Shown here: in pieces, positions 7,833 through 59,378 of the stretch
Position numbering within the stretch: the first letter of the stretch is position 1
Layout of the letters: each line of letters opens with the position of its first letter
IMG/VR virus record: IMGVR_UViG_3300037507_002575
Coordinates: 1 to 64,000 of that record
Length of the DNA stretch: 64,000 nt
Direction: 5' to 3' (one strand)
Source of the DNA: a virus
Notes under the pieces: generated by a model
What the model was told of the DNA's origin: nothing
The model's input: the letters and a program-made list of their open reading frames with translations, nothing else
The model's database searches: none
Position numbers and translations under genes: made by a program

Positions 7833-8564
7833 ATGAAAATATTAGGACCTACCGAGACAGGTAAAGGAATATTGATTGAAATGGACGCAGGATATGTGTC
7901 ACCATCTCATGAATTTAATAAAAAGATGCTTGAAGAAAATCACAAGAACTTCTTGGATTATTCAAAACCTTTTGAATTCTATGCCGTACTTCAAAAATAC
8001 AACACACCAAACCGTAATGGTAGAGTGTATCCTGAAAGAATCTTAAAACGTGAATCTGAGAATTATAAAAAGATGATTCAAAAAGGAACATCTCTTTCAG
8101 AATTAAATCACCCTGAATCATCATTAATTGACCTTGACCGTGTGTCTCACATCATCAATGATATATGGTGGGACGGACATATCCTTATGGGTAAGTTACG
8201 TCTTCTAACATCACCAGGATTTCATGAGAGAGGGATTGTATCTACAAAGGGTGACCAAGCAGCAAACTTGTTAAGACAAGGTGTTACTTTGGGTATATCT
8301 TCACGTGGGGTTGGTTCTTTAAAAAAGAGTGGTGAACAGAATGAAGTACAAGATGATTTTGAATTAATCTGTTTTGATTTGGTATCTTCACCATCTACAC
8401 CAGGAGCATATTTGTTTACAAACCCTGATGACAGAAACAAATTTGAAGAAAATTTAGAAGAAGAAAAAGTTTCAAGAATGTCTCCAATCGAACAGGAAAG
8501 TGGAACAAAAATGAACCGCTCTATTGACTTATTAAAAAAATTAAACCATTATTTGGACAGATAA
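7833..8564 (+). CDS. Prohead maturation protease (gp21-like)
   Basis: Serine protease of the herpesvirus assemblin/T4 gp21 type, 243 residues (T4 gp21 has 212). SELNHPESS places a candidate catalytic His at residue 93, and LGISSRGVGS supplies the nucleophile (Ser156 or Ser157); PNRNGRVYP near residue 60 is also characteristic of the family. In the prohead it digests the scaffold and trims capsid proteins after (Ile/Leu)-x-Glu sites, one of which is visible in the downstream capsid protein. The scaffold and capsid genes follow. Confidence 0.94.
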   Translation: MKILGPTETGKGILIEMDAGYVSPSHEFNKKMLEENHKNFLDYSKPFEFYAVLQKYNTPNRNGRVYPERILKRESENYKKMIQKGTSLSELNHPESSLIDLDRVSHIINDIWWDGHILMGKLRLLTSPGFHERGIVSTKGDQAANLLRQGVTLGISSRGVGSLKKSGEQNEVQDDFELICFDLVSSPSTPGAYLFTNPDDRNKFEENLEEEKVSRMSPIEQESGTKMNRSIDLLKKLNHYLDR

Positions 8565-10525: not shown

Positions 10526-12373
10526 ATGGGTGCATTATTAGAAAGCGGTCTTGTTGGTAACATTGGTTTGAAACACCTTAAAGTTATCAAAGAAGACACA
10601 ATCAACAAATGGGATAAACTTGGCTTTTTAGAAGGTCTAAAAGGTCACATGAAAGAAAACGTGGCTCAGTTGTATGAAAACCAAGCTTCACACTTAATTA
10701 ACGAAGCTTCTTCAACTTCTGATTCAGGTTCTTTTGAAACGGTTGTTTTCCCAATCGTGAGAAGAGTATTCTCTAAATTATTAGCTAACGACATCGTGTC
10801 TGTACAAGCAATGAACTTACCAATCGGTAAATTGTTCTACTTCGTACCTAAAATTCAAGGTTATTCTGGTGGAACTTCAGCGGATGGTTTGTTTGGACAA
10901 TCAGGTTCACACTACGCTCCTATTGGTTCTCCTGGAAACTATCCTGGTAACCCAGATGCTGGTTATAGTGCTGCAGATAGTAATGGTCTTTACAATCCTA
11001 TTTACAATAAGGATTTGTATGACTTATTCTACGAAGGTAACGAAGCTGGTTTGAACCCTCCTGGTTTGTTTGACTATTCAAAAGGTCAGTGGACAGCAGT
11101 AACTGCATCAACTGTAACTTACGCTTGGTCTAATGCTGGTGTATTAGTTCCTAGCGCTTACACTACAGATAATTACAGAAAAGTAATTATTGTTATGAGT
11201 GGTTTCTCTAACGCTGGTGCTGGTCAATTGATTGGTCCTAATGGTAATACTATGGATACTGAAGAATTCTTATCAGGTTTGAACATCTTAGGTGTAGCTG
11301 GTAACGTTTATACTTCAGCAAACACAACTAACCCTTACTTATTCAGAGTTGTAACTCAAAGATATGGTAAAGGTATTGTTCAATACGGTAATCAAGTAAA
11401 CACTACTTGGCCAACTGCTAATAACTCAGGTGGTTCTTATTACAATATTTGTGACGCTGATGGATTTATTTTCTTAGAAATGGATTTACAAGCTCCTGTT
11501 TGTATCACTTGTGGTGATTCATCTATGGACGGTTACACAGGTTCAACATTCTCATCTTCAACTGTTGTTAACAATGCGTTCTACGCAATTTACAGAAACT
11601 ACAAAGAGTTGGAATTTGAAGACCAAATTGGTGAAGTTTCTTTTGACCTTGAGTCAGTAACAGTTTCTGTTACAGAAAGAAAATTGAGAGCACAATGGTC
11701 TCCTGAATTAGCTCAAGACGTTGCGGCGTTCCACAACATTGATGCTGAAGCTGAATTGACAGCATTGTTATCTGAGCAAGTTGCAGCAGAAATTGATAGA
11801 GAAATCTTGAGAGATTTGAGAAAAGGTGCGGCTTGGAACTTGAGATGGGATTACAACGGTTGGAAGAGACTATCTTCTGCTGGTACTACTCCTTACACTC
11901 AAAAAGATTGGAACCAAACTTTGATTACTGCAATTAACCAATTGTCAGCTCAAATCCACAAATCAACTTTAAGAGGTGGTGCTAACTGGATTGTTGTATC
12001 TTCTGAAGTATCTGCTATCTTTGATGACTTGGAGTACTTCCACGTATCAAACGCAGCTCCTGAGCAAGACCAATACAACATGGGTATTGAAAGAATCGGT
12101 ACATTGTCAGGAAGATACCAAGTGTATCGTGACCCTTACTTCCCAGCTAACCAAGTGTTAATCGGACACAAAGGTACTAGCTTGTTGGATACAGGTTACA
12201 TCTACGCTCCATATGTTCCTTTACAGTTGACTCCAACTATGTATAACCCATTCAACTTCACACCTATCAAGGGTATCATGACAAGATACGCTAAGAAAAT
12301 GGTTAACAACCGTTTCTATGGTAGAGTAACAGTTGATGGTGTAAGAACATTCAACTTACAAGAATTGAGATAA
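10526..12373 (+). CDS. Major capsid protein (gp23-like)
   Basis: HK97-fold major head protein, 615 residues (T4 gp23 has 521). The N-terminal propeptide is followed by a maturation site, HLINE at residues 56-60 before Ala61, matching the (Ile/Leu)-x-Glu consensus for gp21. Then come FPIVRRVFSKLLANDIVSVQ and MNLPIGKLFYF, typical of gp23. The middle (about 115-360) is expanded by a Gly/Asn/Ser-rich insertion. The C-terminal part has the conserved LRAQWSPELAQDVAAFHNID, EREILRDLRK-like and IGHKG segments. Codons are more GC-rich and regular than in neighbours, as expected for the most highly expressed gene. A strong terminator follows. Confidence 0.96.
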   Translation: MGALLESGLVGNIGLKHLKVIKEDTINKWDKLGFLEGLKGHMKENVAQLYENQASHLINEASSTSDSGSFETVVFPIVRRVFSKLLANDIVSVQAMNLPIGKLFYFVPKIQGYSGGTSADGLFGQSGSHYAPIGSPGNYPGNPDAGYSAADSNGLYNPIYNKDLYDLFYEGNEAGLNPPGLFDYSKGQWTAVTASTVTYAWSNAGVLVPSAYTTDNYRKVIIVMSGFSNAGAGQLIGPNGNTMDTEEFLSGLNILGVAGNVYTSANTTNPYLFRVVTQRYGKGIVQYGNQVNTTWPTANNSGGSYYNICDADGFIFLEMDLQAPVCITCGDSSMDGYTGSTFSSSTVVNNAFYAIYRNYKELEFEDQIGEVSFDLESVTVSVTERKLRAQWSPELAQDVAAFHNIDAEAELTALLSEQVAAEIDREILRDLRKGAAWNLRWDYNGWKRLSSAGTTPYTQKDWNQTLITAINQLSAQIHKSTLRGGANWIVVSSEVSAIFDDLEYFHVSNAAPEQDQYNMGIERIGTLSGRYQVYRDPYFPANQVLIGHKGTSLLDTGYIYAPYVPLQLTPTMYNPFNFTPIKGIMTRYAKKMVNNRFYGRVTVDGVRTFNLQELR

Positions 12374-14817: not shown

Positions 14818-15288
14818 TTAACAATAGGCACCTGAACAATGTTTTTTTCCGTCTAAACCAGGCATCCTACCTTTACACACTTGAACCGCATAACCATTCG
14901 CATATGCCGAAGGGTAAACATCATACTTTGCTTTAGCAGCAGCTTTACCACGAACACATAATTTTGTTCCCGTTTTTTTCTTACCTTCCATCATATTAGG
15001 CTCAACCTCCATTGTTTCGTCTTCACCCCCATTGATTTCATTCATTAAAAAATCAAAGACTTGGTCCATATTGTTTTTTGCTTCAGAAATGTGGTCTTGA
15101 GCCCAGTCATGACCATTGTCAAGAATACTTTCAATTTGTGATTCATCTAAATCTAACAACATTTCACATTGTCTTTTCATTTGTTCTAAATTAGAGAAGA
15201 ACATGTATCTTTCATTTTTTTGTTCTTGTAATACTTTTCTTACAAGGTTTTGAATCATAGATTCATTAAGTCTAACTATTTTTTTCAT
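14818..15288 (-). CDS. Cys-containing phage protein with SAYANGYA motif
   Basis: A 156-residue protein. It opens with MKKIVRLNESMIQNLVRKVL, a leader I associate with virion-associated proteins of environmental phages, followed by QE at a possible prohead-protease site (Leu-x-Glu). The middle is acidic and helical. The C-terminal 45 residues are basic with TKLCVRGKAAAKAKYDVYPS, AYANGYAVQVCKG and a final Cys-containing tail. Probably a packaged or head-associated protein, but this is inference. It overlaps the upstream structural gene by four bases. Confidence 0.75.
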   Translation of the reverse strand: MKKIVRLNESMIQNLVRKVLQEQKNERYMFFSNLEQMKRQCEMLLDLDESQIESILDNGHDWAQDHISEAKNNMDQVFDFLMNEINGGEDETMEVEPNMMEGKKKTGTKLCVRGKAAAKAKYDVYPSAYANGYAVQVCKGRMPGLDGKKHCSGAYC

Positions 15289-34433: not shown

Positions 34434-34459
34434 TTTAATAAAAAATAATATATATATAA

Positions 34460-35014: not shown

Positions 35015-35025
35015 TTTAAAATATA

Positions 35026-36546
35026 TTATTGTTCGTGAGGAATAAAATTTCTCAGTTTTGTTTTATTTTCATTAACAAATGGTAATAAAACTTGGTGTAA
35101 ATCGTGACTAATATTTTTATCAGTTTCATCATCATTTTTTCTTGTTTGACTTTCATAATGATACGCAACATATCTTCCGTCAAAATAATTGGTAAAACCA
35201 TTTAATAAACATTTAAAATTCATTTCCACATCTTCAAAACAAACTTTATATTCTTCATTAAAATATCCCAATTTTTCAAACAATGATTTTTTAATCATCG
35301 TTAAACCTGCGGTATTACCTAATACTTTTTTAATATTTGTACTGTAATTATAATGACTTTTAAATCCAGCATGAGATAATTTAAAATCATTAGGTTTTGC
35401 AATCCAAGAAATAATACCATCATGTTGTACTAAATTATCTTCAAAATGTAATCTACAACCAGCGGTCCCAACATTATGATTTTGTTTGTGTATTTTCATT
35501 AAACCATAAATAATGTTGTTTAAAAATTTGATATCATTATTACAAAAAAGTATGTATTCAAAATCATTTGATATATGATTTTTAACAACATCATTATTAA
35601 TTTTTGCAAAGTTATAATAATCGTATTCTATTAAATGAATGGTTGATACATTAGTTCTTTCTGAAATAAAATCTTTAATTTGATTAATTTCATCTAACGA
35701 AGAACCTGTATCGGCAATAAATAATTCATATTGTTCTTTGTCTGAATGTTCAATTATCGAATTAACACAATCAAACAATAAATTTAATTTACTTTTTGTT
35801 GGTATAATAACTGCTGTTTTAGTAGAAATTTTTATACTCTTTTCTTTTACTTCGGGAATATAGACTGTACTTGGTTTAATCTCTAATGGTAAAAAAGTTT
35901 TGTATTTTTCCAAAAAAACTTCTTTAGATTTGTAAAATTCTTCATTTGGTTGACCAATTGATTTATGAGTAATTTCAAATGATGTGGTAACTCCTAATTT
36001 AACACCATCTAAATAATTTGACAATGAAAATGGATGGTCATAAAAGTGATATTTACCAATTGTTTCATCAAAGGTGTGTTTAATTTTTGTTTTATTAAAC
36101 GATATAAATAAACCATCAAGTGTTACCACAGGTATTAAAAATGGTAATTTTGGTGAATATTTATTAATCCATTTGTTTTGTCCTTCAGGGTGATGATAAA
36201 CCTGTCCAACCATAGTTTGACCCATTCTTTCCCAATAGACACCTGATTCAGGAAAATAACAAGAACCTGCTTTGCCAATAATTCCATAATCAGGATTATC
36301 TTCAAAGTCTTTTATTAATTTTTTACCCCAACCTTGTTCTAGTTTTACATCATTATGTAAACATACTACAATATCATATATTGATTCACCAATACCTCGG
36401 TTATAAACTTGGGATAATGAAAATTCATTATTATTTTGGTACTCTAAAATTTGTGTATTTTTTAAACCAACAGTAGTTTCTAAATGTTTTTTAAATTCTG
36501 AATTGTACTTAGAATCTTTATGGGTTGAGTATATTATAGTAATCAT
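35026..36546 (-). CDS. Two-domain GT2 glycosyltransferase
   Basis: A 506-residue protein with two GT-A-like halves. The first (about 1-225) has IYDIVVCLHNDVKLEQGWGK and resembles rhamnosyl-type GT2 domains; the second (from about 240) begins TAVIIPTKSKLNLLFDCVNS, has EYILFCNNDIKFLN and then GTAGCRLHFED and CFEDVEMNFKCLLNG, the catalytic ED region. Both halves appear to retain acidic sites, so it may add two sugars or form a polymerising enzyme. It ends the glycan run before dUTPase. Confidence 0.85.
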   Translation of the reverse strand: MITIIYSTHKDSKYNSEFKKHLETTVGLKNTQILEYQNNNEFSLSQVYNRGIGESIYDIVVCLHNDVKLEQGWGKKLIKDFEDNPDYGIIGKAGSCYFPESGVYWERMGQTMVGQVYHHPEGQNKWINKYSPKLPFLIPVVTLDGLFISFNKTKIKHTFDETIGKYHFYDHPFSLSNYLDGVKLGVTTSFEITHKSIGQPNEEFYKSKEVFLEKYKTFLPLEIKPSTVYIPEVKEKSIKISTKTAVIIPTKSKLNLLFDCVNSIIEHSDKEQYELFIADTGSSLDEINQIKDFISERTNVSTIHLIEYDYYNFAKINNDVVKNHISNDFEYILFCNNDIKFLNNIIYGLMKIHKQNHNVGTAGCRLHFEDNLVQHDGIISWIAKPNDFKLSHAGFKSHYNYSTNIKKVLGNTAGLTMIKKSLFEKLGYFNEEYKVCFEDVEMNFKCLLNGFTNYFDGRYVAYHYESQTRKNDDETDKNISHDLHQVLLPFVNENKTKLRNFIPHEQ

Positions 36547-39720: not shown

Positions 39721-40116
39721 TTATGTTGTTGTGTTATCAAATTTTGCAATTACAATAACTTGGGTCATGCTTTTATCTCCATTAAAGTTATAGCCAGGTT
39801 GTGCCTGAGTAAAGTTTTCACGTGTAGGTTTTAACATAGTTATTTTATCTACACGAAATAATCTCCAAGAAGGTAGTGGTTGTTCACCTTTATATGCGGT
39901 ATGAGATGCTCCTGTTCTATCCCATCCTCTAAGGACTAAATTACCTGCTTTTGAACGACCTAAAGCAACCGGTTCAATTTCACGTAATCCTCGTCCTCCT
40001 GGTTCATCACCTTCATAATAAATGGAGCACACTTGTTTTTGCTCAATTGATTTTTTAATATCATCAATTGATGCCGCTTCAGTTATTAAAGATTTTAACG
40101 AACCAAGTAATCTCAT
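39721..40116 (-). CDS. WYL-like domain protein with capsid-targeting-type leader
   Basis: A 131-residue protein. Residues 1-13, MRLLGSLKSLITE, then Ala14, look like the cleaved capsid-targeting leaders of T4 internal and Alt proteins, which end in (Ile/Leu)-x-Glu. The rest, from IKKSIEQKQVCSIYYEGDE through GRGLREIEPVALGRSKAG and LVLRGWDRTG to RLFRVDKITML, has the order of a WYL domain, a ligand- or nucleic-acid-sensing Sm-like fold common in phage-defence regulators. No helix-turn-helix is present. It shares one base with the neighbouring gene. Confidence 0.65.
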   Translation of the reverse strand: MRLLGSLKSLITEAASIDDIKKSIEQKQVCSIYYEGDEPGGRGLREIEPVALGRSKAGNLVLRGWDRTGASHTAYKGEQPLPSWRLFRVDKITMLKPTRENFTQAQPGYNFNGDKSMTQVIVIAKFDNTTT

Positions 40117-41734: not shown

Positions 41735-44700
41735 ATGGCTTACCAGAACATTAACCAATATGTCTATAAAAAATGGTATTTATCACCATTTTTGGAGGTT
41801 ACAGACCTTTCTTTAGCATCAGATGAACGAGATTATAACGAAGAAGTTATTTTTTCACCATATATTATTGGTGCGTATGATGGTGATGTGTTACCAGTTA
41901 AGTTTGATATTAATTTTACGGGAAGTAATCAAAATTTTTCATTAACCTATGGAAATTATGATTTTGATAATATTTTAATTTCAGAAAATTACTATAACCC
42001 AACAGATGTTTTAATACCTTGTTATTCTTCAAAAACAATTTGTGATATTGGACTAACAGGAACTGATAATGGTTTGGTAACCGGAATGACTGGTCAATCA
42101 ATAACATATACAAATGGTTTACTACCCGCAAATGAAAAATTTGATAGGTATAAATTTGACAGAAGATTAAAATTACATCAAGTAACAGGATATACTTGGA
42201 CACCAAACACAAGATTTTCGGGTGTAACCGCAGGAACGGTTTATAATGTTGTGTCATATAGTGCTCAAACTATTGGAAATTACCAAGAATTGTATGGTGG
42301 TTTCTATCAAGGATTTTATGAATTGTTTGGTTACGATTATAAAATTTTACCTGAAAGATATCCAAAAGGATGGACGGTAGAGATGACTTTAAAACCAAGA
42401 TTATCAAATGTTTATTCTCCAAGTTCAGGACAAACCACATTAAATGAATATTATCCAAACAATGCGGGTATATTCTTTTATATGGGTACAAGAGCCGAAA
42501 ATAAATATTGGCACCACGCAGCCGGAACAAATTCAGGTGACCCATCTTATTACAGAATTACAACACCGTTAACTGGTTTAACAAGTTGTTTTTGTGTTGA
42601 TTTGTATACAGGATATACAACTTCATCAACAACAATTTTTGATTTAACAACAACAGGTAGAACATTGACTGTTTCACCAGACTTATTATGGGTTTCAGGT
42701 GATACGGCATTAATTTATCATGACGATGCTCAGTATCTTGAGGGAACCGTTGTTGGATACACGGCATCAACAGGAAATTTTCAATTTGTAACCACAAAAC
42801 GAGTAGGGTTGGGGACTATTAAATTTTCAATAATAACCAAACCAGGTTATTTACAGTATAATGACTCTAATTGTGTATTAGTATATCCACCAACAGGAAC
42901 AACAGATTCACACACTCAAGTAGACCCTTGTTGTTGTCCTGAACCACCAGTTCCAATTCCAGAACATAATCCTGAATATGATTCAATGTCTAATGCAATT
43001 GCAATCAAATTTAGTGGTGACCCACACAATCCGAAAATTTGTATAAGAACTTTAACTATAACGGGGGATTGTATTTTTTCAGGTTCTTGTGAAACTTTAG
43101 GTCCTGATTCAGTAACGGGATATTCAATTAACAACTACTGTACCGATAGAGGAATTTATGATGACTGTAGTGGAACAACATATGATGAACAAGAACATTG
43201 GGTTTTAGTAGATGTAGTCTTTGAGCGATATACATGGTTAGATACGTGTGATTTATACTATCGTGGTGGTCTTGGAACTATTACTGTGTTCCCGTACACT
43301 GCTAGTACGGCAAACAATTCGGTTTCATTAATATCACCACCAATAACACATTATGAATTAATTCCGACTATTGAAGAACTTGTTGAGTTAAACAATCTTT
43401 GGATTTTAGAAAAAATATACCGTAGAGGTCGAATGAAAATCTACATTAATGGTAGAATATTTGATGTGTTTGAAGATGTTGAAGAAATTATACCTCGTGG
43501 TTTATTTGGACACAAAGAAACCCAAGTTGGAGTACCATTCAACATATCTTGGGGTGGTGGTACACAAGGATTACACGAAAATTTAATTTTTAGTGCGGTA
43601 CCAACAAATGATATTAATTATTATACCCAAGACCCTGAATTGTTTCCACCAAACATTTTAAGTGGGACTACATTAAGCGGTCTTACAACTAACATTTTAA
43701 TTGAACAAAATTTTGCAGGGACATTTGATGGTGCAATATCAACATTTGGTATGTATGCAAAACCATTATCGGTTCCAGAAATCCAACACAATGCAAGAAT
43801 TTTAAGACCAATTTACAATTTTTTAAATCCATATTGTTTAAATTGTGATTTCCCAACACCCACACCTACATCAACTCCTACACATACACCTACAAACACA
43901 CCAACAATATCTCTAACACCATCAAATACCGCAACACCTACAGTAACACCAACTTTATCAACAACTCCAACACCAACAGCAACAACAGGGTTGACTCCAA
44001 CGGCAACTGCAACTCAAACTATAACACCAACAAATACATCTACCCAAACACCAACACCTACACAAACAAATACATCTACTCAAACACCAACACTAACACC
44101 CACACAAACTAAAACACCAACACCAAGTGTTACGTCCACTATTACTCAAACACCAACACAAACACAGACTAAAACACCAACGCCAAGTGTTACATCTACA
44201 CCAGGATATACTGGATGTGAATATTATAGATTAATAAATGAATCTGACAGAGGAAATGTTATCTATTCTTACATAGATTGTTATGGTACTTTAATTTCTG
44301 GAAATGTTTTACCTCCAAATCCTGATGTTTATTTATGTGCAACTAAAAATAGTGTTAAAAGAACTGGTGGTGTTAATTCTTTGGTTTTAGTTGATTTAGG
44401 TATGTGTCCATCGGCAACTCCGACTCCAACTATTACGCCAACAGTTACACCAACAACAAGTGTTACACCAACTAATACACCAACACCTACACCGACTAAT
44501 ACTGAAACTCCTACTAATACACCAACACAAACACCTACTAACACTGAAACTCCTACTAATACACCAACACAAACACCTACTAACACTGAAACTCCTACTA
44601 ATACACCAACACAAACACCTACTAACACTGAAACTCCTACTAATACACCAACACAAACACCTACACCTACAAACACAGAAACTCCTACTGAAACACCAAC

Positions 44701-45652
44701 TCAGACTCCAACTAATACTGTAACACCAACGCCTACAAATACAGAAACTCCAACTCAGACTGTAACTCCAACAGTTACGCAAACACCAACAAACACTAAT
44801 ACCCCAACCATTACATCAACTCCAACAAATACCAACACACCAACACCATCAACAACACCAAGTATTGTAAGTTCAGGATTGGTTATTCAACTTGACGCAT
44901 ATGAAAGTTCAAGTTACCCTGGTACAGGAACAACTGTTTTTGATATTACAGGTGGATATGACCATACATTAATTGGTGCAACTTACACAGTTCTTAATGG
45001 TATAAAATGCTTCGATTGTACAACAGGAACTAATAGAGTTGATTACAACTTAACAGGACCTTTATTACCAAATTCAGGATACACATATATCACTTGGGCA
45101 AGATTGATACCTAGTAATGCTGGGTTTAGAACAGTACTTTATACAAAGGGCCCTCCTAAAATCACACCAATTACCATACCTAATGGAACAAACACATTAG
45201 GATATTGGGCAACAGGATTTGTAAGTTCAGGATATGATGTTTCATCTTCGGCAGGTGTTTGGGTTCAATTTGCTGTAGTTGGAACAAATACATCTCAAAC
45301 ATTCTACATAAATGGTTCACAGGTGGGAAGTACAATCAATGAGGGTGCTGGTGGAACTAGACACTGGGGATGGGGTAATAATGATACGGCGGGTCAACCT
45401 TGGGGACATGTTGCCAACATGTATTTCTATAACAGACAATTAAATCTTACTGAAATAACACAACAATACAATTATTTAGCTCCAAGATTTATAGAACCAA
45501 CCGCAACACCTACACCAACAATAACTACAACTAACACTCCAACACCTACTGAAACACCAATAACAGTACTAATTAATCCCGTTTTAATAAGTGGTATTAA
45601 TGAATATATTTCAGTTGGTAATGGTGAGTATTTGGAATTTTTTGAACCATAA
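41735..45652 (+). CDS. Giant fibre-like protein with two mucin-like stalks and LamG-like domain
   Basis: A 1305-residue protein. Residues 1 to about 700 are beta-rich, with a Cys-rich segment ([12 protein letters not shown] near 394-405) and several sandwich-like regions. Residues about 707-825 are a Thr/Pro/Ser stalk. A short globular unit follows ([20 protein letters not shown] ... LGMCP, about 829-890). A second Thr-Pro stalk spans about 893-1045. The C-terminal portion ([20 protein letters not shown], then [35 protein letters not shown]) has the order of a LamG/concanavalin-type lectin domain. This is most likely a surface fibre whose stalks space binding domains. Two fibre/glycosylation genes follow it. 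Confidence 0.85.
43852..44209 (+). repeat. First Thr-Pro stalk coding repeat of the fibre-like gene
   Basis: Degenerate triplet-phase repeats based on ACACCAACACCTACA-like units encode the first Thr/Pro/Ser stalk ([28 protein letters not shown] repeated twice). No long perfect unit, so older than the second array. Confidence 0.88.
44411..44868 (+). repeat. Second Thr-Pro stalk array with four near-perfect 42-base units
   Basis: The array contains a 42-base unit encoding [14 protein letters not shown] starting at 44501, 44543, 44585 and 44627. The first three copies are identical and the fourth matches for about 38 bases before diverging. The unit keeps reading frame, so gain or loss of copies would change only stalk length. 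Confidence 0.95.
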
Positions 45653-46271: not shown

Positions 46272-47519
46272 ATGAAAATATTTGTTCAAATTGCCGCTTA
46301 TCGTGACCCCCAACTTATAGCAACTATCAAAAGTATGATAGAAAATGCTAAAAGACCTAAAAATTTAAGAATTGGTATTGCAAGACAATTTCATCCTGAA
46401 GACGGGTTTGATGACATGTCAGAGTACGAAAATGATAAAAGATTTAGAATCCTTAACATTCCTTATCAAGAATCAAAAGGTGTTTGTTGGGCAAGAAACC
46501 AAGTTCAACAACTATATCAAGGTGAAGAATATACACTTCAAATTGATTCACACATGAGATTCGCACCCAATTGGGATGATGAAATGATTAAGATGATTAA
46601 ACAACTTCAAAAGAAAGGTCATGAAAAACCATTACTTACAGGATATGTATCATCTTTTGACCCCGACAATGACCCATCAGGGCGTATGCAAGAACCATGG
46701 AGAATGGCGTTTGACAGATTTATTCCTGAAGGTGCGGTATTCTTCCTACCTGAAACAATTCCAGGTTGGCAGAGCTTAACAGAACCTGTTACATCTCGTT
46801 TCTATTCAGCTCACTACTGTTTTACATTAGGTCAGTTCTCAAAAGAAGTACAACACAACCCTGAATACTATTTCCACGGTGAAGAAATATCAATTGCCGC
46901 TCGTGCTTATACTTGGGGTTATGATTTATTCCACCCACATAAAGTTTTGATTTGGCACGAATATACTCGTAAAGGTAGAACAAAACAATGGGATGATGAC
47001 AAAGATTGGGGTAATAAAAACAGTCATTCACATTTTACCAATAGAAAATTATTTGGTATGGATGGTGAAAAACAAGAAGGTCATGACGGACCTTATGGAT
47101 TTGGACCTGTTAGGACATTAAGAGATTATGAAAAGTATTCAGGTCTTTTATTTGAAAAAAGAGCTGTCCAACAACATACCTTAGATAAGAATTATCCACC
47201 AAATCCATACAACTTTGAATCTGAAGAAGAGTGGAAGAAAAACTTTGCTCAAGTATTTAAACATTGTATTGATATTGGTTTCTCACAAGTACCTGAAAAA
47301 GATTATGATTTTTGGGTGGTTGCCTTCCACGGTGAAAATGATGAAACACTGAACAGAAAAGACGCTGATAAGGCAGAAATTGATAGAATGATGAATGACC
47401 CTGATGGTTACTGTAAAGTATGGAGAGAATTCCAAACAGAACATAAACCAAAGTATTGGGTTGTTTGGCCACACTCAGTATCTAAAGATTGGTGTGAAAG
47501 AATAACAGGAAATTTATAA
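46272..47519 (+). CDS. GT60-type polypeptide N-acetylglucosaminyltransferase homologue
   Basis: A 415-residue protein with the GlcNAc-transferase (GT60) family layout: KIFVQIAAYRDPQLIATIKS at the start, RIGIARQFHPEDG, KGVCWARNQVQQLYQGEEYT near 69-88, LQIDSHMRFAPNWDDEM (Asp92-Ser93-His94) near 89-105, and YFHGEEISIAARAYTWGYDL as the catalytic acidic region. Eukaryotic relatives attach alpha-GlcNAc to hydroxyproline of Skp1 or to Thr of trypanosome mucins. No signal peptide, so it would act in the host cytoplasm. It lies two genes after the mucin-like fibre on the same strand. Substrate is inferred. Confidence 0.88.
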   Translation: MKIFVQIAAYRDPQLIATIKSMIENAKRPKNLRIGIARQFHPEDGFDDMSEYENDKRFRILNIPYQESKGVCWARNQVQQLYQGEEYTLQIDSHMRFAPNWDDEMIKMIKQLQKKGHEKPLLTGYVSSFDPDNDPSGRMQEPWRMAFDRFIPEGAVFFLPETIPGWQSLTEPVTSRFYSAHYCFTLGQFSKEVQHNPEYYFHGEEISIAARAYTWGYDLFHPHKVLIWHEYTRKGRTKQWDDDKDWGNKNSHSHFTNRKLFGMDGEKQEGHDGPYGFGPVRTLRDYEKYSGLLFEKRAVQQHTLDKNYPPNPYNFESEEEWKKNFAQVFKHCIDIGFSQVPEKDYDFWVVAFHGENDETLNRKDADKAEIDRMMNDPDGYCKVWREFQTEHKPKYWVVWPHSVSKDWCERITGNL

Positions 47520-47520
47520 T

Positions 47521-48243
47521 ATGGAAAATTTAGATAATAATTATGCCATCACCACTTTTTGTTATGGTGAAAGGTATTATGAACAAACAAACAGATTAAT
47601 AGATTCTTTTAAAGAACTTAATGATAAACCAACAATTTTTGTTGTTACCGACAATCCCGATAAAATCACAAAAGAAAGTTGGGTTAAGGTTAAAGACATT
47701 AGGGAGTATAATGAACAATATCAAACCTACAATACAAATTATTATGATTTTGATTTTTCAGTTAAAAGGTATTCGGTTAGATTTGCATTAGAAAATGGTT
47801 TTAGTAAAATAATATTATGTGATACTGACGTTGTGGCTAATGAAAGTTTATTTACACATGAAAATATATTAAAACTATTTTTACCTAATAGTATATCTGG
47901 TCAAGTAACATATCTATTTGAAAATGAAGAAAAAAGTAATAGTGAGTTAGGTAAAAGATTCAAACACTACGAAAATAAATTCAATGTTTTATATAGTAAT
48001 GAAAATTTTTACATGCCTGAAGATTGTGTTCAATTTTTAGATATTGAAACAAATAAATTTAATGATTTTTTAAATACTTGGGATGAGTGTATTAAAATCA
48101 AATACGATGAGAATTTACGTAACGTGCCAGCGGGTAATATTGATGAAATGTGTTTTTCAGCATTTTATAACGGTATTGAATTAAAAAATAATTCCAGTCA
48201 AGGCATAAACTTATTGATTCCAAAACATAATAAATGGTATTAA
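47521..48243 (+). CDS. GT-A glycosyltransferase-like protein
   Basis: A 240-residue protein with SVKRYSVRFALENGFSKIIL followed by CDTDVVANESLFTHENILKL, where CDTDV is a DXD site near residue 100. NVPAGNIDEMCFSAFYNGIE near the C-terminus contains acidic residues in the catalytic position. It starts one base after the GT60 gene and overlaps the next by 10 bases, so it probably extends the same glycan. Confidence 0.75.
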   Translation: MENLDNNYAITTFCYGERYYEQTNRLIDSFKELNDKPTIFVVTDNPDKITKESWVKVKDIREYNEQYQTYNTNYYDFDFSVKRYSVRFALENGFSKIILCDTDVVANESLFTHENILKLFLPNSISGQVTYLFENEEKSNSELGKRFKHYENKFNVLYSNENFYMPEDCVQFLDIETNKFNDFLNTWDECIKIKYDENLRNVPAGNIDEMCFSAFYNGIELKNNSSQGINLLIPKHNKWY

Positions 48244-49076
48244 AAATAATAACTTCAATCTACGATTTAAGATATGAAGACGGTAGAGGTGGAATGAGGT
48301 ATAAATCATTCCCGTTGTTGGCTCAAACAATACAAAACATCATATTTGATGAATATGAATATGTTATTTATACAGATAAACACACATATGATACATTTTC
48401 ATTAGGTGATGTTTTTAACCAACAAAATGTTGTTATAAAAATTGAAGAATTAGATTCTGAATATTACTTAAACACTATTAATCCAATCAGAGAAACAAAA
48501 TTCAATGAAGGTGAAATATATGATAGAATATATTGTGTTAAAAACTATATTGAGGTAATTTTAAACAAAATTAAATTTTTATTGTCTGAAAGTGAAGAAA
48601 ATAAAAATGTTGTTTGGTTAGATGCGGGATTGTTTGGAACTAGTTGTCACGATGGTTGGAGAGATTATATGAATGTCTTGGCCCACTCAAAATTATTTTT
48701 GGATAAAATTAATGAAAAAATTGATGAGTATGGTTTTATATCTTTAAGAGGTGAAGCAATCCAAATTAATTATGAGTTACGAGATAGAATGAATGCGATA
48801 TATAACACAGACTTTAAATTAATACCTGGTGCATTATTTGGTGGAAATAAAGAAAATATACAAAAAGTATTATCCGATTATCTAAATATTTTTGATTTAT
48901 ATTTAAAAACTTATAGTGGTTTAATCAGTGAACAAGAGGTTTTGGCCATTTTAACACATAGAAATAACACCAAGTTCTTTAATTTTGGAGATTGGAATGA
49001 TTTCCAAAGAGGTATTTTAGAAATTATGGACAAATTAGACACTGAAAAATATATCTTAGAAAAATGTTATGAATAA
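48234..49076 (+). CDS. HtrL/YibB-like putative glycosyltransferase
   Basis: A 280-residue protein. EYVIYTDKHTYDTFSLGDVF, KNVVWLDAGLFGTSCHDGWR and LIPGALFGGNKENIQKVL appear in the order of the HtrL/YibB-type family, linked in enterobacteria to polysaccharide loci and thought to be glycosyltransferase-related. LDAG would be the donor-site acidic residue. It shares this order with the first half of the 49632-51308 protein, so the two are distant paralogues. Confidence 0.72.
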   Translation: MVLKIITSIYDLRYEDGRGGMRYKSFPLLAQTIQNIIFDEYEYVIYTDKHTYDTFSLGDVFNQQNVVIKIEELDSEYYLNTINPIRETKFNEGEIYDRIYCVKNYIEVILNKIKFLLSESEENKNVVWLDAGLFGTSCHDGWRDYMNVLAHSKLFLDKINEKIDEYGFISLRGEAIQINYELRDRMNAIYNTDFKLIPGALFGGNKENIQKVLSDYLNIFDLYLKTYSGLISEQEVLAILTHRNNTKFFNFGDWNDFQRGILEIMDKLDTEKYILEKCYE

Positions 49077-49635
49077 TTTTTCTTTTCACATCCTTTGTAC
49101 ATCTTTAGGACGAGAATCGTTAGGTCGTTTAATTGATAGTTTTGTTAATCAATTAAATGAAAATGATTATTTTACCATTGTATCGGATAATAATCACGAC
49201 TTTGTTGAGGGGGTGTTATCTACTTTTAATTTTAAATGTAAATTAAATCATATTAAAAATTTAAACGGTCCTGAAGGTAATTTTGGACATCCATTGTTAA
49301 ATAGACATATGAATACCTTAGACGGTGATTTTATAATGTTTGCCGATGATGATGATAGGTATGTTCCTGATGCATTTGAATATATTAGAAATACTGTTAC
49401 AGAAAAAAAATTATACATTTTTAAACATAAATGGGGTGGTACCGTTAATTGGGCTTCAAAACATTTTGAAGTCGGCAACATTGGTAAATGTGTTGGTGTA
49501 ATACCAAACACCAAAAATTTACCGTTATTTCATGAGGATATTTTTGGAGATGGGATATTTTATTCTGACATATCAAAAATATTTGAATATGAATTTATTG
49601 ATAAAATTATTTATAAAGTTAGGGATACAGAATGA
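49069..49635 (+). CDS. GT2-like glycosyltransferase, short
   Basis: A 188-residue protein: SFHILCTSLGRESLGRLIDS, PLLNRHMNTLDGDFIMFADD (followed by DDRY), a GT2 metal site near residue 97, and a C-terminal HEDIFGDGIFYSDISK with acidic residues. Overlaps the upstream gene by 8 bases and the downstream gene by 4. Confidence 0.8.
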   Translation: MNNFSFHILCTSLGRESLGRLIDSFVNQLNENDYFTIVSDNNHDFVEGVLSTFNFKCKLNHIKNLNGPEGNFGHPLLNRHMNTLDGDFIMFADDDDRYVPDAFEYIRNTVTEKKLYIFKHKWGGTVNWASKHFEVGNIGKCVGVIPNTKNLPLFHEDIFGDGIFYSDISKIFEYEFIDKIIYKVRDTE

Positions 49636-51308
49636 GTAAAATAACATTAGTTACAGGTTTATGGAATATTAATCGTGATTCATTAACTGAAGGATGGTCA
49701 CGTAGTTTTGAACATTATTTAGAAAAATTTGACCATCTTCTTAAGGTTGATAATAATATAATAATTTTTGGTGAACAAGAATTGGAATCTTTTGTTTGGG
49801 AAAGAAGAGATAGGTCAAACACCCAATTTATTGTTAGAGATAAAGATTGGTTTAAACAAACTGTTCCATACGATAAAATCCAACAAATTAGAACAAATCC
49901 TGATTGGTATAATCAAGCTGGATGGTTGGCAGACTCAACACAGGCAAAACTTGAATGGTATAATCCATTAGTTATGTCTAAAATGTTTTTGTTACATGAT
50001 GCCAAAATTTTTGATAATTTTGATTCTGAATATATGTTTTGGATTGATGCTGGATTGGCAAATACTGTACATCCAGGTTATTTTACACATGATAAGGTCT
50101 TAGAAAAACTTCCAAAGTATATTAATAAATTTAGTTTTGTTTGTTTCCCTTATGAGGCAAATAACGAAATTCACGGGTTTAATTTTGACGAAATTAATAA
50201 GATATCACAGACAAAGGTAGACATGGTTGCTCGTGGTGGTTTTTTTGGTGGACCAAAGAGTAGTATTAGTGATATAAATGGAATTTATTATAATCTTTTA
50301 ACATCCACATTGTCACAAAATTTAATGGGAACTGAAGAATCAATTTTTTCAATAATGTGTTATAAACATGCTGATTTGATTGATTATTTTGAAATTGAGT
50401 CAAATGGTTTATTTGGAAAATTTTTTGAGGATTTAAAAAATGACGATTTAAAAAAACAAAGTAAATTTAAAATGGATGCTGTTAATGATGATTTAAGCCC
50501 TGATAATGTTGCCTTATATGTTATAACATTTAATAGTCCAAAACAATTTGAAACTTTAATGAATTCTATGGAAGTTTATGATATAGATTTTATTAACAAA
50601 CCAAAAAAGTTCTTATTAGATAATTCATCAGATTTATCAACTACCGAGAAATACTCGGAACTTTGTGAAAAATATGGTTTTGAACATATTAAAAAAGATA
50701 ATTTAGGTATTTGTGGTGGTAGACAATGGATTGCAGAACATGCTGAAGAAAATGAATTTGATTTTTATTTCTTTTTTGAAGATGATATGTTCTTTTACCC
50801 AAACAAAGGTGAGGTTTGTAGAAATGGATTTAACCGATACGTTGACAATTTGTATAAAAACATAATTGAGATTACAAAAAAATACCATTATGACTTCATC
50901 AAAATGAACTATAGTGAGTTTTTTGGTGATAATGGAATACAATGGTCATGGTATAATGTACCGCAAGATTTTAGGGTAAAACATTGGCCAGAAAAACCAA
51001 CATTACCCGTTCAAGGTCAAGACCCAAACGCACCAAAGACAAAATACAACAACATTAGAAATCACAAAGGAATTCCTTTTGTTGATGGTGAAATTTACTA
51101 TTGTAATTGGCCACAGATAGTTACACGACATGGAAACAAAAAAATGTTCTTAGAAACAACATGGTCAAGACCGTTTGAACAAACTTGGATGAGTTACATG
51201 TTCCAAGAAACAATTAAGGGAAATATTAAACCCGCATTGTTATTGATGACACCAACTGAACATGATAGGTTTGATTTTTATGATGGTTCATTAAGAAAAG
51301 AATCTTAA
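49632..51308 (+). CDS. Two-domain HtrL/YibB-GT2-like fusion
   Basis: A 558-residue protein. The first half (about 1-285) has KITLVTGLWNINRDSLTEGW, WYNPLVMSKMFLLHDAKIFD, MFWIDAGLANTVHPG and ARGGFFGGPKSSISD, matching HtrL/YibB. The second half has NVALYVITFNSPKQFETLMN, GFEHIKKDNLGICGGRQWIA and FYFFFEDDMFFYPNKGE, a GT-A metal site near residue 380, plus TTWSRPFEQTWMSYMFQET. A fusion of two transferase-like modules suggests consecutive sugar additions. Last gene of this glycosylation group. Confidence 0.8.
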   Translation: MSKITLVTGLWNINRDSLTEGWSRSFEHYLEKFDHLLKVDNNIIIFGEQELESFVWERRDRSNTQFIVRDKDWFKQTVPYDKIQQIRTNPDWYNQAGWLADSTQAKLEWYNPLVMSKMFLLHDAKIFDNFDSEYMFWIDAGLANTVHPGYFTHDKVLEKLPKYINKFSFVCFPYEANNEIHGFNFDEINKISQTKVDMVARGGFFGGPKSSISDINGIYYNLLTSTLSQNLMGTEESIFSIMCYKHADLIDYFEIESNGLFGKFFEDLKNDDLKKQSKFKMDAVNDDLSPDNVALYVITFNSPKQFETLMNSMEVYDIDFINKPKKFLLDNSSDLSTTEKYSELCEKYGFEHIKKDNLGICGGRQWIAEHAEENEFDFYFFFEDDMFFYPNKGEVCRNGFNRYVDNLYKNIIEITKKYHYDFIKMNYSEFFGDNGIQWSWYNVPQDFRVKHWPEKPTLPVQGQDPNAPKTKYNNIRNHKGIPFVDGEIYYCNWPQIVTRHGNKKMFLETTWSRPFEQTWMSYMFQETIKGNIKPALLLMTPTEHDRFDFYDGSLRKES

Positions 51309-54870: not shown

Positions 54871-55986
54871 TTATACAACAGTAATTGGTATTGGCATTGC
54901 TCTATATTTTAATTGCTTATTTAAATTTTCAGCAATAGAACCTTCTTTTTCCATTTGTTTTTCAGGACGTAATCTTTCTAATCTTTGTTGGAGTTCCGTC
55001 ACTAAAGAAACTTTTTCATCTTTGGCTTCAGTTTGAAGAGACTGATAATCCATTGTTAATTCACTATCTGGTGTCTTCAAATTACCACTGAATTTACCTC
55101 TAACACGAGCTAAGGTCTCTTTACAGTATGCGGTGAACCATCTTCTAACCCATTGTTTTGCAGGGTCGTTTAAATCAATCCAATTTAATTCATCTAATGG
55201 AATGTCTGATGGTAATTTTACGATATCAGGATTATCTTTAAGACATTGGTCTCTGTCTGCATCAGTTGTATCATAATACCAATACCAAACACGACCTCTC
55301 ATTAATTCATTATCACCAAAATCAAATCTACCACCAGGTGTATTATACAACATAACCGCTCTTTTTCCATCAGGAAGTGCTGTCACACGATAACTAACAT
55401 CGGGTTGCATAATTCTTCTTTTAAGATTTATGTCTTGTTGTCTTGCTAATACATCATAAGATGAGAACATGAAATATCCTCCACCGGCACCACCTTGAGC
55501 AAACCCACCAGGTCCACCAAGTCCACCATAACCACCAAGACTTTGCATTGACCAAGGGTCAAAGAACATGTTATTTTGTTCTGCTGGTGAATACCATAAA
55601 AGTTCGTTAATTTCACGACCCGCAGGTATTTCGTATATTTGTACGTTTTGTTGTAATTCAAAATAATCCTTCTTAAGAACCCAAGGACCTGAATTTTGAA
55701 GACCAACAATTTTAGAATAAGCGTAAGTGTATTGAGTTTCCCAATCAAGACTTCTTCTGATTAAAGCGTTTGCCACAGATTGGGTATCCAAATTCATACC
55801 ATACAATGTTGTCCATTGTGATTCAATCAACCAATCATAAAGATATTGTGTATAGTCACCGATGGACAATTCAAGTAATGAATCCATCATTTCAAATTCC
55901 AATTCAACAGCTCTTAATGGAGCCCCAAGTTGATTTAAAATCCTGTTATACAGTTTGGTTCTTTCTGGTTCAGCAATAACTACCAT
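54871..55986 (-). CDS. Neck protein (gp13-like)
   Basis: A 371-residue protein (T4 gp13 has 309). LYNRILNQLGAPLRAVELEF, then MMDSLLELSIGDYTQYLYDW, follows the gp13 opening in which a Leu-Gly-Pro/Ala segment precedes Val-Glu-Leu. The centre is expanded by a Gly-rich loop (GGYGGLGGPGGFAQGGAGGG near 151-170). The C-terminal WVRRWFTAYCKETLARVRGK FSG region with later LQTEAKDEKVSL matches the gp13 end. It joins head and tail with gp14. A TATTTAT motif lies 12 bases upstream of the ATG. Confidence 0.82.
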   Translation of the reverse strand: MVVIAEPERTKLYNRILNQLGAPLRAVELEFEMMDSLLELSIGDYTQYLYDWLIESQWTTLYGMNLDTQSVANALIRRSLDWETQYTYAYSKIVGLQNSGPWVLKKDYFELQQNVQIYEIPAGREINELLWYSPAEQNNMFFDPWSMQSLGGYGGLGGPGGFAQGGAGGGYFMFSSYDVLARQQDINLKRRIMQPDVSYRVTALPDGKRAVMLYNTPGGRFDFGDNELMRGRVWYWYYDTTDADRDQCLKDNPDIVKLPSDIPLDELNWIDLNDPAKQWVRRWFTAYCKETLARVRGKFSGNLKTPDSELTMDYQSLQTEAKDEKVSLVTELQQRLERLRPEKQMEKEGSIAENLNKQLKYRAMPIPITVV

Positions 55987-56013: not shown

Positions 56014-57558
56014 TTACAATTGATACAACTTGGCATCAATTGGGAAATAATAAACACCATCAATAATTTTTGTGTTTGAGTTATCAAAGATTACCATGTC
56101 ATCCAAACGTTTCATAAAAATCATCCAATTTGTTTGATATCTTTTAACATTTGCGGTACCATCAACTTTATACATGTCTTCACTTCTTGTTATATGACTG
56201 AATGGTTTTACCTGTGCAGTTTTTTCAACACCATCAACCATAATCTTAACATCCACACCCGTCATCATATCTTCTTTGTTTCCAAGTTCACCAATACGAG
56301 TTACGTTTTCATCACCAAATTGTTTTTTAAGTTTTTCAACAACAGCATCTTCAGTTTTATTACCTTTGTCTGAAGTTACCCCCATCACACTCATAATTGT
56401 TTTAAATGTTTCTGACTCTAATGAAAAAACTCTAAACTTAACTTTGTTTAATGTTTTTAACATTCTTGCCATTTCATTGACTTGTTCTCTTTGTGTTTTA
56501 TCTGAAAAAATAATTGGTTCTTCACCTATTTTTGTAAGATATTTGTTTAAATCTTTTTTCAAGACACAAAACGCACTGTAATTTGTATTCAAATAATTGA
56601 TAACAGACCTACCTTCACCTTCCAAATCATACACACCCGACATTTGTCCTTTAGCATATTCATCTTTGTTGTAAAATCTGTCAGCAAATGTTTCTTTTAA
56701 AATTTGCATTATTGCATTTTTGTATAGATTAAGAACATCACGGTTTGTATTAAATAATAATTTTGAGGCCATTTTGTCTTGAGTAGAACAAGGTTCACTC
56801 TTAACGGCTTCAGTTAAAAATTCTTTTGCGGTTGTAGATTCTTTTACCGTTTTGTCTAACTTTCTTGAAAGTTCAGATTCTACATAATCCCAATTCACAA
56901 CTTTCCAAAAGTTTTTAATATATTCATCTCTTCTATTTCTATATCTTAGATAATATGCGTGTTCCCAAACATCTAACCCTAAAATTGGATATCCGCCTTG
57001 GTCAACAACATCCATAAGTGGATTGTCTTGGTTGGCGGTTGTCATAATCTTTAATGTTCCTCGTTTTGTAAGAACTAACCAACACCAACCTGAACCAAAT
57101 CTATCTTTTGCTTGACCATCAAATTTCTTTTTAAAGTCAGATAAAGATGAAAAACTTTGATTAATTTTTTTGAGTGTTATCGGACCTGGTTTTGTTGTTT
57201 TTGGAGTTAACATTTTCCAAAACAATTGGTGGTTGTAAGCCCCACCCGCATTATTTCTGATGAACTTGTTGAAACTGTCAATTGTTTTAACAATTTCTTC
57301 TAAAGTTAAATCTTCATCATCTTTTAATGCTCCATTTAATTTATCAACATAACCTTTGTAGTGTTTGTTGTAATGAACACTCATGGTTTCTGGGTCAATA
57401 AATTGTTTTAGTGCTGAATAAGAATAGGGTAATCTTTCTATCTTAATGTTTTTGGCTTCTGTGACAACTTTTCGTACTTTTTGTTCTTGTTGTCTTTTAA
57501 TTTCTTTTTTTTGTAAATCTTCTTCAATTACTTCAATCCTATTTTTAAGATTCTTCAT
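56014..57558 (-). CDS. Fe/Mn superoxide dismutase fused to a PD-(D/E)XK-like C-terminal domain
   Basis: A 514-residue protein. Residues 43-235 form a full Fe/Mn SOD with all metal ligands: His62 (SVHYNKHYKGY), His110 (GGAYNHQLFWKML), Asp196 and His200 (LDVWEHAYYLRYRNRRDEY), ending FWKVVNWDYVESEL. Normal SODs stop here. About 280 more residues follow, with GVDVKIMVDG (Asp436) and TAQVKPF (Gln449, Lys451), preceded by TEDAVVEKLKKQFG, an order like PD-(D/E)XK nucleases. Prohead-protease-like sites occur at VVTE34-Ala35 and FLTE250-Ala251, the latter exactly between the two parts. It may be head-packaged and split. A TATTTAT motif lies upstream. Confidence 0.85.
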   Translation of the reverse strand: MKNLKNRIEVIEEDLQKKEIKRQQEQKVRKVVTEAKNIKIERLPYSYSALKQFIDPETMSVHYNKHYKGYVDKLNGALKDDEDLTLEEIVKTIDSFNKFIRNNAGGAYNHQLFWKMLTPKTTKPGPITLKKINQSFSSLSDFKKKFDGQAKDRFGSGWCWLVLTKRGTLKIMTTANQDNPLMDVVDQGGYPILGLDVWEHAYYLRYRNRRDEYIKNFWKVVNWDYVESELSRKLDKTVKESTTAKEFLTEAVKSEPCSTQDKMASKLLFNTNRDVLNLYKNAIMQILKETFADRFYNKDEYAKGQMSGVYDLEGEGRSVINYLNTNYSAFCVLKKDLNKYLTKIGEEPIIFSDKTQREQVNEMARMLKTLNKVKFRVFSLESETFKTIMSVMGVTSDKGNKTEDAVVEKLKKQFGDENVTRIGELGNKEDMMTGVDVKIMVDGVEKTAQVKPFSHITRSEDMYKVDGTANVKRYQTNWMIFMKRLDDMVIFDNSNTKIIDGVYYFPIDAKLYQL

Positions 57559-57608: not shown

Positions 57609-59378
57609 TTATCGCCTCCAATTATTTATAAGTTCCAAAATTTCTTGAACATAATCACCGTTGTCTACCTTATCACCCATCACGGTTTCAAAGATGTCTT
57701 TCTTCTTTTTGAGTATGTCATAGATGATTCCCTCCACAGTATTGTCAAAAATTGGGTAATAAACTAACACATTATTTTTTTGTCCATAACGGTAACTTCT
57801 ATCTTCTGCTTGGGAGTGGTCGGATGGTAAAAACGATAAATCATTCATAACAACGGCTTCACCAGCTGTTAATGTAATACCAACACCTGCGGCTTTTATA
57901 TTTCCGACAAACACCATAACATCTTCTTCGTTTTGAAAACGGTCAACAGACATTTGTCTTTCTTTTTGTGACATTTGACCATCAAGTCTAACCGCCTTTT
58001 TTCCAAAATGTTCCAATATCATCTCCAAAGTTTTGGTGAAGTTAGTAAAGACAATCACTTTCTTACCTTGTTCCACAATGTTTTCACAGATTTCAATTGT
58101 TGACGCAACTTTTTCTTCAGCAATCACCTGTCTTACTTTTGTAAGTTTGGTGAATTGAAGGGTTAGTGAATCGGACTCACCATTTTTATCGTACCAATCA
58201 TAATATTCACCCATTAGGGCTTCATATTCTTTTGATTTTAATCTTAAGTAAACGGGTGTGATAATTTTATCAGGTAAATCTAAGACATTTTCTTTTAATC
58301 TTCTTAGAACTAAAGGTGCTGTTCGGTCTCTTAACTCTTCTAAGTTGGATGCTCCACTAACATTCCAAATTTTTCTTCTTCCTGCTTGGAATTGAAAACC
58401 ATTACAATACCTTTTGACGTATGCCATCCAATTCTTGGCTACAGGACATTCAATCAAGTTTAACAAATTAAAATAATTGATTGGTCTTGAAGTGATTGGT
58501 GTACCTGTTAACAACCAAAGTCTATCAACATTGGACACAAAGTCATTAATTAACTTGGTTCTTTGTGCTTGTTTGTTTTGAATGTAATGTGCTTCATCAA
58601 TAATCACCAAATCAAACTTTGTTTTTAATAAAACAGAATCTGATTTCTTTTTTTCATCGTGAAAGTTTTTAATAATGTCATAGTTGATGATTATAAAATC
58701 ACCATCTTCCCATTTTTTACCTTCAATGATTGATGTTGGTTTATTTGAATAGTTTTCAATCTCACGTTGCCAGTTAATCTTCAAAGATGCTGGACAAATA
58801 ATTAATACTTTCTTTGCTCCCGTTTCCAAAGCGGCAATAATGGTTGAAGTTGTTTTACCCAAACCCATATCATCGGCAAGAATAAACTTTTTATTTTCAA
58901 CCAAAGATTTAATAGCTTCTTTTTGGTGTTCAAGTGGTGGACGGTGAGAATACTTTTCATAATCAATTACCACATCCTTAACTTTATTGTCTTTTATCAA
59001 AGCAACCTTTGGAATCCAAAAGTCGTACACTTGTTCTGAATCAAAATATTTTCCCCAAATATGGTAGGCGGTATCTTTTTCAACCAAAAGTTTTTCAACA
59101 TATACTCTTGTTGGAACAGATGAAAGTAATTTATCATTGGCAATTTTTTGTGCAAAATATGAATCAAGTTCAACCCACTTCTTGGCAACTTTTGGAGCCA
59201 TTTCGTGATAATTTATAATGTATTCTGCTTGGGCTCGGGTTGGATAGAACTTTTTGTTATCAATCTGTTTTTGTCTTAAACGTATGATATAATTATTGGC
59301 ACCCTGATACGTCTCTAATAAATCAAGAGCCTTTCTTTCTAACACAGAGACATTATATGCGTTTTCAGTATTTTCCAA
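57609..59378 (-). CDS. SNF2-family helicase/translocase
   Basis: A 589-residue SF2 protein. Walker A ILADDMGLGKTTSTIIAAL near residue 166-184, motif Ia LIICPASLKINWQREIE, DEAH-type box LVIIDEAHYIQNKQAQR near 259, motif III WLLTGTPITSRPINYFNL, and C-terminal KVIVFTNFTKTLEMILEHFG, VGITLTAGEAVVMNDL and DRSYRYGQKN. This is the SMARCAL1/SNF2 pattern rather than T4 UvsW. It would remodel DNA or forks during replication or recombination. The only in-frame start is TTG 59378 (an in-frame stop lies 15 bases upstream), giving MENTENAYNVS. Confidence 0.92.
   Translation of the reverse strand: MENTENAYNVSVLERKALDLLETYQGANNYIIRLRQKQIDNKKFYPTRAQAEYIINYHEMAPKVAKKWVELDSYFAQKIANDKLLSSVPTRVYVEKLLVEKDTAYHIWGKYFDSEQVYDFWIPKVALIKDNKVKDVVIDYEKYSHRPPLEHQKEAIKSLVENKKFILADDMGLGKTTSTIIAALETGAKKVLIICPASLKINWQREIENYSNKPTSIIEGKKWEDGDFIIINYDIIKNFHDEKKKSDSVLLKTKFDLVIIDEAHYIQNKQAQRTKLINDFVSNVDRLWLLTGTPITSRPINYFNLLNLIECPVAKNWMAYVKRYCNGFQFQAGRRKIWNVSGASNLEELRDRTAPLVLRRLKENVLDLPDKIITPVYLRLKSKEYEALMGEYYDWYDKNGESDSLTLQFTKLTKVRQVIAEEKVASTIEICENIVEQGKKVIVFTNFTKTLEMILEHFGKKAVRLDGQMSQKERQMSVDRFQNEEDVMVFVGNIKAAGVGITLTAGEAVVMNDLSFLPSDHSQAEDRSYRYGQKNNVLVYYPIFDNTVEGIIYDILKKKKDIFETVMGDKVDNGDYVQEILELINNWRR

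Follow-up and report, generated by a model that had tools for sequence, protein, structure and literature searches.

A predicted superoxide dismutase–nuclease polyprotein of a T4-like phage with capsid-targeting-like tags and conserved prohead-protease-type sites

A protein of 514 amino acids encoded by a T4-like phage carries a superoxide dismutase (SOD) and a nuclease-fold domain on one chain. It is probably a precursor bearing a capsid-targeting sequence (CTS)-like tag, which the S77 protease of the phage would cut in the prohead to release the SOD and the nuclease, and the two would be injected along with the DNA. This reading is drawn from sequence comparison and structure prediction. The gene lies in the window, the term used here for the whole stretch of 64,000 nucleotides that was analysed (positions 1 to 64,000 of IMG/VR record IMGVR_UViG_3300037507_002575; virus record G000, 65,849 bp), and at least 460 relatives of the protein are present in IMG/VR. 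The coordinates of the features are collected in Table 1.

Table 1. Features of the window that bear on the SOD-nuclease protein (positions are those of the window)
Feature	Position	Strand	Remarks
SOD-nuclease polyprotein gene	56014..57558	minus	ORF, ATG start, 514 aa
Leader, residues 1-34	57457..57558	minus	predicted helical, ends V-x-E34
Prohead-protease-type site 1	57457..57465	minus	V32-T33-E34 before A35
SOD part, residues 35-240	56839..57456	minus	predicted Mn-type; ligands H62, H110, D196, H200
Prohead-protease-type site A	56839..56847	minus	V238-K239-E240 before S241
Linker decapeptide, residues 241-250	56809..56838	minus	STTAKEFLTE, T4 CTS-like
Prohead-protease-type site B	56809..56817	minus	L248-T249-E250 before A251
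Nuclease-fold domain, residues 251-514	56017..56808	minus	E403, D436, Q449, K451 invariant
TATTTATA motif upstream of SOD-nuclease start codon	57588..57595	minus	candidate late promoter element
SNF2-family helicase, upstream neighbour	57609..59378	minus	retained in 4/4 genomes examined
Head-tail adaptor (neck) gene, downstream neighbour	54871..55986	minus	PHROG 211, 3.3e-10; 4/4 genomes
Prohead protease, Peptidase_S77 (T4 gp21 type)	7833..8564	plus	Pfam PF03420, 2.4e-23
Major capsid protein, Gp23 type	10526..12373	plus	Pfam PF07068, 4.1e-73
Protein with CTS-like leader	14818..15288	minus	MKKIVRLNESMIQNLVRKVLQE before Q; co-packaging candidate
WYL-domain protein with CTS-like leader	39721..40116	minus	MRLLGSLKSLITE before A; co-packaging candidate

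The window is that of a T4-like phage: its capsid protein is of the Gp23 type, its portal and terminase are of the T4 type, and its prohead protease is a Peptidase_S77. Among its relatives, the longest contigs measure 295-322 kb. The nearest named relatives of the capsid protein are those of Microcystis and Flavobacterium phages, at 40-41%, and this protein contains a candidate maturation site, I58-N59-E60 before A61, that is conserved across four genomes. Elsewhere in the window, translations point to large apparent glycosyltransferase and sugar-nucleotide gene blocks (21599-36546 and 46272-51308), and ORFs with long repeats of the TPTPTNTPT type are found at 12673-13530 and 41735-45652.

Both Fe/Mn SOD Pfam domains match the 514-residue protein far above the cut-off: Sod_Fe_N (PF00081) at residues 40-117 (1.2e-20) and Sod_Fe_C (PF02777) at residues 129-228 (5.6e-39). 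A first-pass annotation, made from the letters and their open reading frames, had claimed a full set of SOD ligands; His62, His110, Asp196 and His200 were all found and are invariant in 30 aligned homologues. An enzyme of the Mn type is predicted from similarity, the top PDB matches being Mn-SODs.

The T4 protease gp21 cleaves after L/I-x-E (PMC9026906). Sites of this kind had been proposed in the first-pass annotation at VVTE34-Ala35 and FLTE250-Ala251, and both are present as described. E34 and E250 of this two-site scheme are borne out by the relatives, but a third site, at E240, had been overlooked. The comparison drew on all scans, which together gave 117 complete and distinct C-terminal domain sequences (98 with SOD and 19 without it), and the SOD-containing copies were reduced, together with the window protein, to 47 non-redundant representatives at <90% identity. 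An (I/L/V/M)-x-E sequence is kept at E34 in 46/47 of these and at E240 in 47/47; at E250, the linker site for which such a comparison had been suggested, it is kept in 46/47. The exceptions are L355, without site 1, and L063, without site B. The P3 residue of site 1 is Leu or Ile in 42/47 representatives, and the Val of the window protein, pointed out earlier as a departure from the rule, is confirmed as a minority variant (4/47).

Two such sites in one protein would count for little, as [ILVM]-x-E is common. In the full alignment, the motif is kept by at least 85% of the 47 representatives at four columns only: 34, 199, 240 and 250. The second of these belongs to the WEH motif of the SOD active site, in the catalytic core, and columns 34, 240 and 250 lie where the leader meets the SOD and the SOD meets the nuclease. 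The glutamates at these borders are conspicuous against a mean column identity of 0.55 in the leader and 0.51 in the linker, compared with 0.82 in the SOD. When the linkers are grouped at <60% identity, 25 clusters result, and both E240 and E250 are kept in 24 of them. This conservation of columns among relatives makes the evidence for the predicted cut sites strong, and across the 47 representatives it rules out a chance origin of the matches. The residue following E34 is Met in 27/47 representatives, approximately where the start codon of a free SOD would be, which suggests that the leader was joined onto the front of an already complete SOD. In the model of the whole protein (pTM 0.50), confidence is lowest at residues 28-35 (pLDDT <50) and around 231-250, which fits flexible junctions and loosely joined domains.

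The ten residues between sites A and B have the form of a targeting sequence themselves. T4 IPIII is directed to the head by its ten N-terminal residues, in which positions 4 and 7 count for targeting and positions 8 and 10 for processing, and Asp at P1 of IPIII prevents this processing (PMC9026906); the T4 ipII and ipIII protein sequences start MKTYQEFIAEA. The linker decapeptide satisfies all four of these positions. Among the 47 representatives, position 4 is hydrophobic in 94% and position 7 in 100%, position 8 is Ile or Leu in 45/47 and position 10 is Glu in 46/47.

Three related genomes supplied 861 proteins, whose first 40 residues were scanned for tags of this type alongside 1649 internal windows. 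A strict CTS-like motif was present in 46/861 N-termini against 8/1649 internal windows, an enrichment of about 11-fold with a p-value (8.5e-15) that is optimistic because the strict form was picked after the tags had been viewed. A looser form gave 128/861 against 139/1649 (p 1e-6). The strict motif occurs inside proteins at about 0.2 per 1000 residues, and an internal copy is maintained across genomes in four protein families only; of these, the SOD-nuclease alone has its copy in a variable interdomain linker, as judged by inspection. The N-terminal enrichment suggests that dozens of proteins may travel packaged in the head. The leader site of the WYL-domain protein listed in Table 1 is conserved in four genomes.

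Many ORFs of the window and of the genomes G001 (L161-L176), G002 (L194-L210) and G003 (L177-L193) open with short tags, such as MKKIIRLTESDLTRIVRRVISE before Q, MKDLIRKILRE before Q and MKLLSIIKTLISE before D. A DHH-family protein (L172:17063-18466; G001:226063-227466) begins with MKRLIKE before S and is a candidate packaged nucleic-acid enzyme.

The C-terminal part, residues 251-514, was modelled by AlphaFold2 with a pLDDT of 90.4 and a pTM of 0.82. The best Foldseek match in the PDB is the homing endonuclease I-Ssp6803I (prob 1.00, E 2.9e-3), followed by Hjc resolvases, and the top 24 fold matches are PD-(D/E)XK nucleases without exception, at E-values of just 3e-3 to 0.4. The matches led by I-Ssp6803I are modest, with a target TM-score of 0.44, and extend over roughly half of the domain, the rest being an added helical region. 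From the model, the domain is predicted to belong to the PD-(D/E)XK-like fold. The first-pass annotation had spoken of a nuclease-like domain and proposed structure prediction as a check on it, and the outcome is this fold and not an unrelated one. Its reading of GVDVKIMVDG and TAQVKPF as the PD-(D/E)XK motifs holds in part: Asp436 and Q449-x-K451 are present, but the acidic residue of (D/E)xK is Gln, as it is in 30/30 homologues. E403, D436 and Q449-x-K451 are invariant in these 30 homologues and are retained in distant paralogues and in a 735-kb phage record (LR756501).

Pfam returned no nuclease family above the cut-off for this domain, and its GLUCM-like and TatD matches were weak, far under the cut-off, and were rejected. 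PHROGs gave nothing usable, PADLOC gave no match, and a profile search of PDB sequences yielded three weak unrelated matches and no PD-(D/E)XK nuclease. As the profile searches identify no nuclease family, it is the fold and the conserved residues that carry the nuclease reading. The predicted fold is held in common with I-Ssp6803I and archaeal Hjc, but the domain differs from both in having no profile-detectable sequence similarity to them and an extra helical N-terminal half. A pattern-seeded search of bacterial and archaeal genomes, which could miss distant relatives, found no relative of the domain. The domain is also contained in a marine phage protein of 1113 aa. UniProt entry A0A6J5L953, from an uncultured Caudovirales phage (501 aa), has the same C-terminal domain (TM-score 0.90) and is annotated only as 'superoxide dismutase', so the fusion is probably already in the databases.

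Orthologues without SOD are found at this same position, flanked by the SNF2 helicase and neck genes (synteny verified for L122), and have the leader fused straight to the nuclease. Their leaders, such as MKNTENKVNLIIEEIKKNETDRKVTLILSE before SKAEKC in L122 and MNNNENKVSLVLSE before TKAEKC in L301, which end L-S-E, all terminate in (I/L)-x-E, bar that of L140 (L-S-T-E). When L313 is compared with L154, an in-frame deletion of 606 bp is seen to take out the SOD; the leader, site 1 and site B remain. On well-supported branches of the nuclease tree, SOD must have been gained or lost at least twice, with L149 nested among SOD carriers. As read from these sequences, the putative targeting tag is retained while the SOD comes and goes. 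Two paralogues of the nuclease (E 6.6e-18 and 1e-11) have CTS-like leaders, MGFKFLKILKTIITE before N (ending KTIITE) and MKITISEGQYKILSE before Y. The latter (L200:4104-5060; G002:118104-119060) sits between the S77 protease and scaffold genes, which ties the nuclease family to the head by position.

The motif TATTTATA precedes the scaffold, neck and SOD-nuclease genes. It is the reverse complement of the T4 late promoter TATAAATA and is about three times commoner upstream of genes than its reverse; the counts in coding versus reverse orientation in four genomes are 40 vs 14, 45 vs 13, 59 vs 20 and 8 vs 1. In one relative it stands in the coding direction before 40/314 genes. Upstream of genes here, TATAAATA in the orientation that T4 uses is rarer than TATTTATA. 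On the strength of position only, TATTTATA is regarded as a candidate late promoter element.

The first-pass annotation had proposed a polyprotein that is packaged with the DNA, split in the prohead and injected, and the sequence and fold comparisons made here speak in favour of that proposal. For the pathway as a whole, the following course is proposed. The SOD-nuclease of this T4-like jumbo phage would be made late, as a head protein, and carried into the prohead core by its leader, and probably by the CTS-like linker as well. The S77 (gp21-type) protease would then cleave the precursor after E34, E240 and E250, freeing a Mn-type SOD (approximately residues 35-240) and a nuclease of PD-(D/E)XK fold (approximately 251-514), with the leader and the ten-residue spacer discarded. 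Both products would remain in the head beside the DNA and enter the host upon infection. It may be guessed that the SOD clears superoxide both near the entering DNA and within the cell just infected, and that the nuclease has as its substrate either host DNA or DNA with branches or breaks. The neighbouring SNF2 helicase is a candidate partner of the nuclease.

Three other readings of the protein have been weighed against this proposal. It is rather improbable that the protein is packaged through its leader and yet stays fused, or sheds the leader only, to act as one bifunctional virion enzyme whose linker sites are a targeting or coiled-coil segment. In its favour, the linker decapeptide is no less like a targeting sequence than like a cut site, and the model shows residues 223-250 as a single helix. 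Nevertheless, the conservation obeys the protease rule, with Ile or Leu at P3, Glu at P1 and P2 and P1' free; two sites placed ten residues apart would cut out a spacer; and site B survives the natural excision of the SOD. An ordinary cytoplasmic auxiliary enzyme that is not packaged, with the SOD acting against oxidative stress and the nuclease serving host DNA breakdown or repair, is very unlikely. Phage SODs are commonly interpreted as metabolic genes, and comparable leaders are missing from two of them: no leader was seen on the SOD of Vibrio phage 2.275.O, and the SOD gene of MW462191 starts two codons ahead of the SOD match. Against this stand the conservation of leader and sites, the tag kept by the SOD-less orthologues, the CTS-like leaders of the paralogues, the adjoining neck gene and the candidate late motif upstream.

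A further reading overlaps with the proposed one and is unlikely as an account of its own: the protein would be packaged and cleaved, with a C-terminal domain that is related to nucleases and binds DNA but is catalytically inactive, serving to organise or protect the packaged DNA. The Gln in place of the usual Glu or Asp of the (D/E)xK half-motif speaks for it, as does the restraint that an active nuclease in the head would need. However, the invariance of E403, D436, Q449 and K451, their presence in distant paralogues and the endonuclease nature of the best fold match, I-Ssp6803I, all favour an enzyme, and T4 heads have accepted both EcoRI and staphylococcal nuclease (PMC9026906, PMC3012670). 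The cleaved precursor that delivers a SOD and a nuclease is kept as the probable reading.

The T4 internal head proteins IPI, IPII, IPIII and Alt are similar in the gp21-type protease and in CTS positions 4, 7, 8 and 10, which the linker decapeptide matches; their (I/L)-x-E leader end is seen in 42/47 representatives, with Val at P3 in the window protein itself. The present protein differs from them in its two enzyme domains per chain, its SOD cargo, a longer leader (about 24-34 aa) and an internal CTS-like spacer carrying two cut sites. In engineered T4, IPIII or CTS fusions to beta-galactosidase, GFP, EcoRI and staphylococcal nuclease were packaged, processed and delivered (PMC9026906); in contrast, the SOD-nuclease arrangement is natural and occurs in many environmental phages. 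Polyvalent proteins, known from phages and conjugative elements, carry unrelated enzymatic domains on one polypeptide and are predicted to enter the host with the DNA, and SNF2 helicases recur among them (Iyer et al. 2017; PMC5512222). The SOD-nuclease likewise has at least two unrelated effector domains on one chain, but its domains are predicted to be separated by the prohead protease, at sites conserved between them, and SOD is absent from the main text of that paper. The Cu/Zn SOD of chlorovirus PBCV-1 is late, virion-packaged and linked to lower superoxide after infection (PMC7019647). It differs in belonging to a eukaryotic virus and in being an unrelated enzyme with no fusion or prohead-protease sites reported.

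Among other viral SODs, many 'phage' matches were left out, being bacterial-type records or short contigs that carry no annotation. A distant SOD-like protein of the Pseudomonas jumbo phage PA5oct, EST35_0261 (L356:1459-2007), is annotated as hypothetical and has a 13-residue leader, MNDSIKKYISIAE before AASSV, which ends I-A-E before A; the PA5oct genome also encodes an S77 protease. Its GenBank entry carries the note 'ESI-MS/MS', as do those of the portal and capsid proteins, though this is suggestive only, because the ribonucleotide reductase subunits bear the same note and the annotation may include carry-over proteins. Superoxide is absent from the main text of the PA5oct paper. Among the open-licence papers searched in full text, none was found to describe a SOD packaged in a phage head or a natural precursor of two enzymes that a prohead protease separates.

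A wider view of the T4-like jumbo phages studied here, for and against which the chances appear evenly balanced, is that they load a large modular enzyme set into the head through a short interchangeable tag. The SOD-nuclease would then be a natural polyprotein cargo in which an internal targeting and cleavage cassette gives two enzymes in equal numbers, with the SOD as an optional part that is lost while the tag and nuclease stay. The conserved tag would provide a sequence rule to predict which uncharacterised jumbo-phage proteins enter with the DNA, and the linker a natural cassette to package two enzymes from a single gene. If the proposed delivery is correct, oxidative protection would begin with the incoming particle and not after phage gene expression, and the effect of superoxide during the first minutes of infection would become testable.
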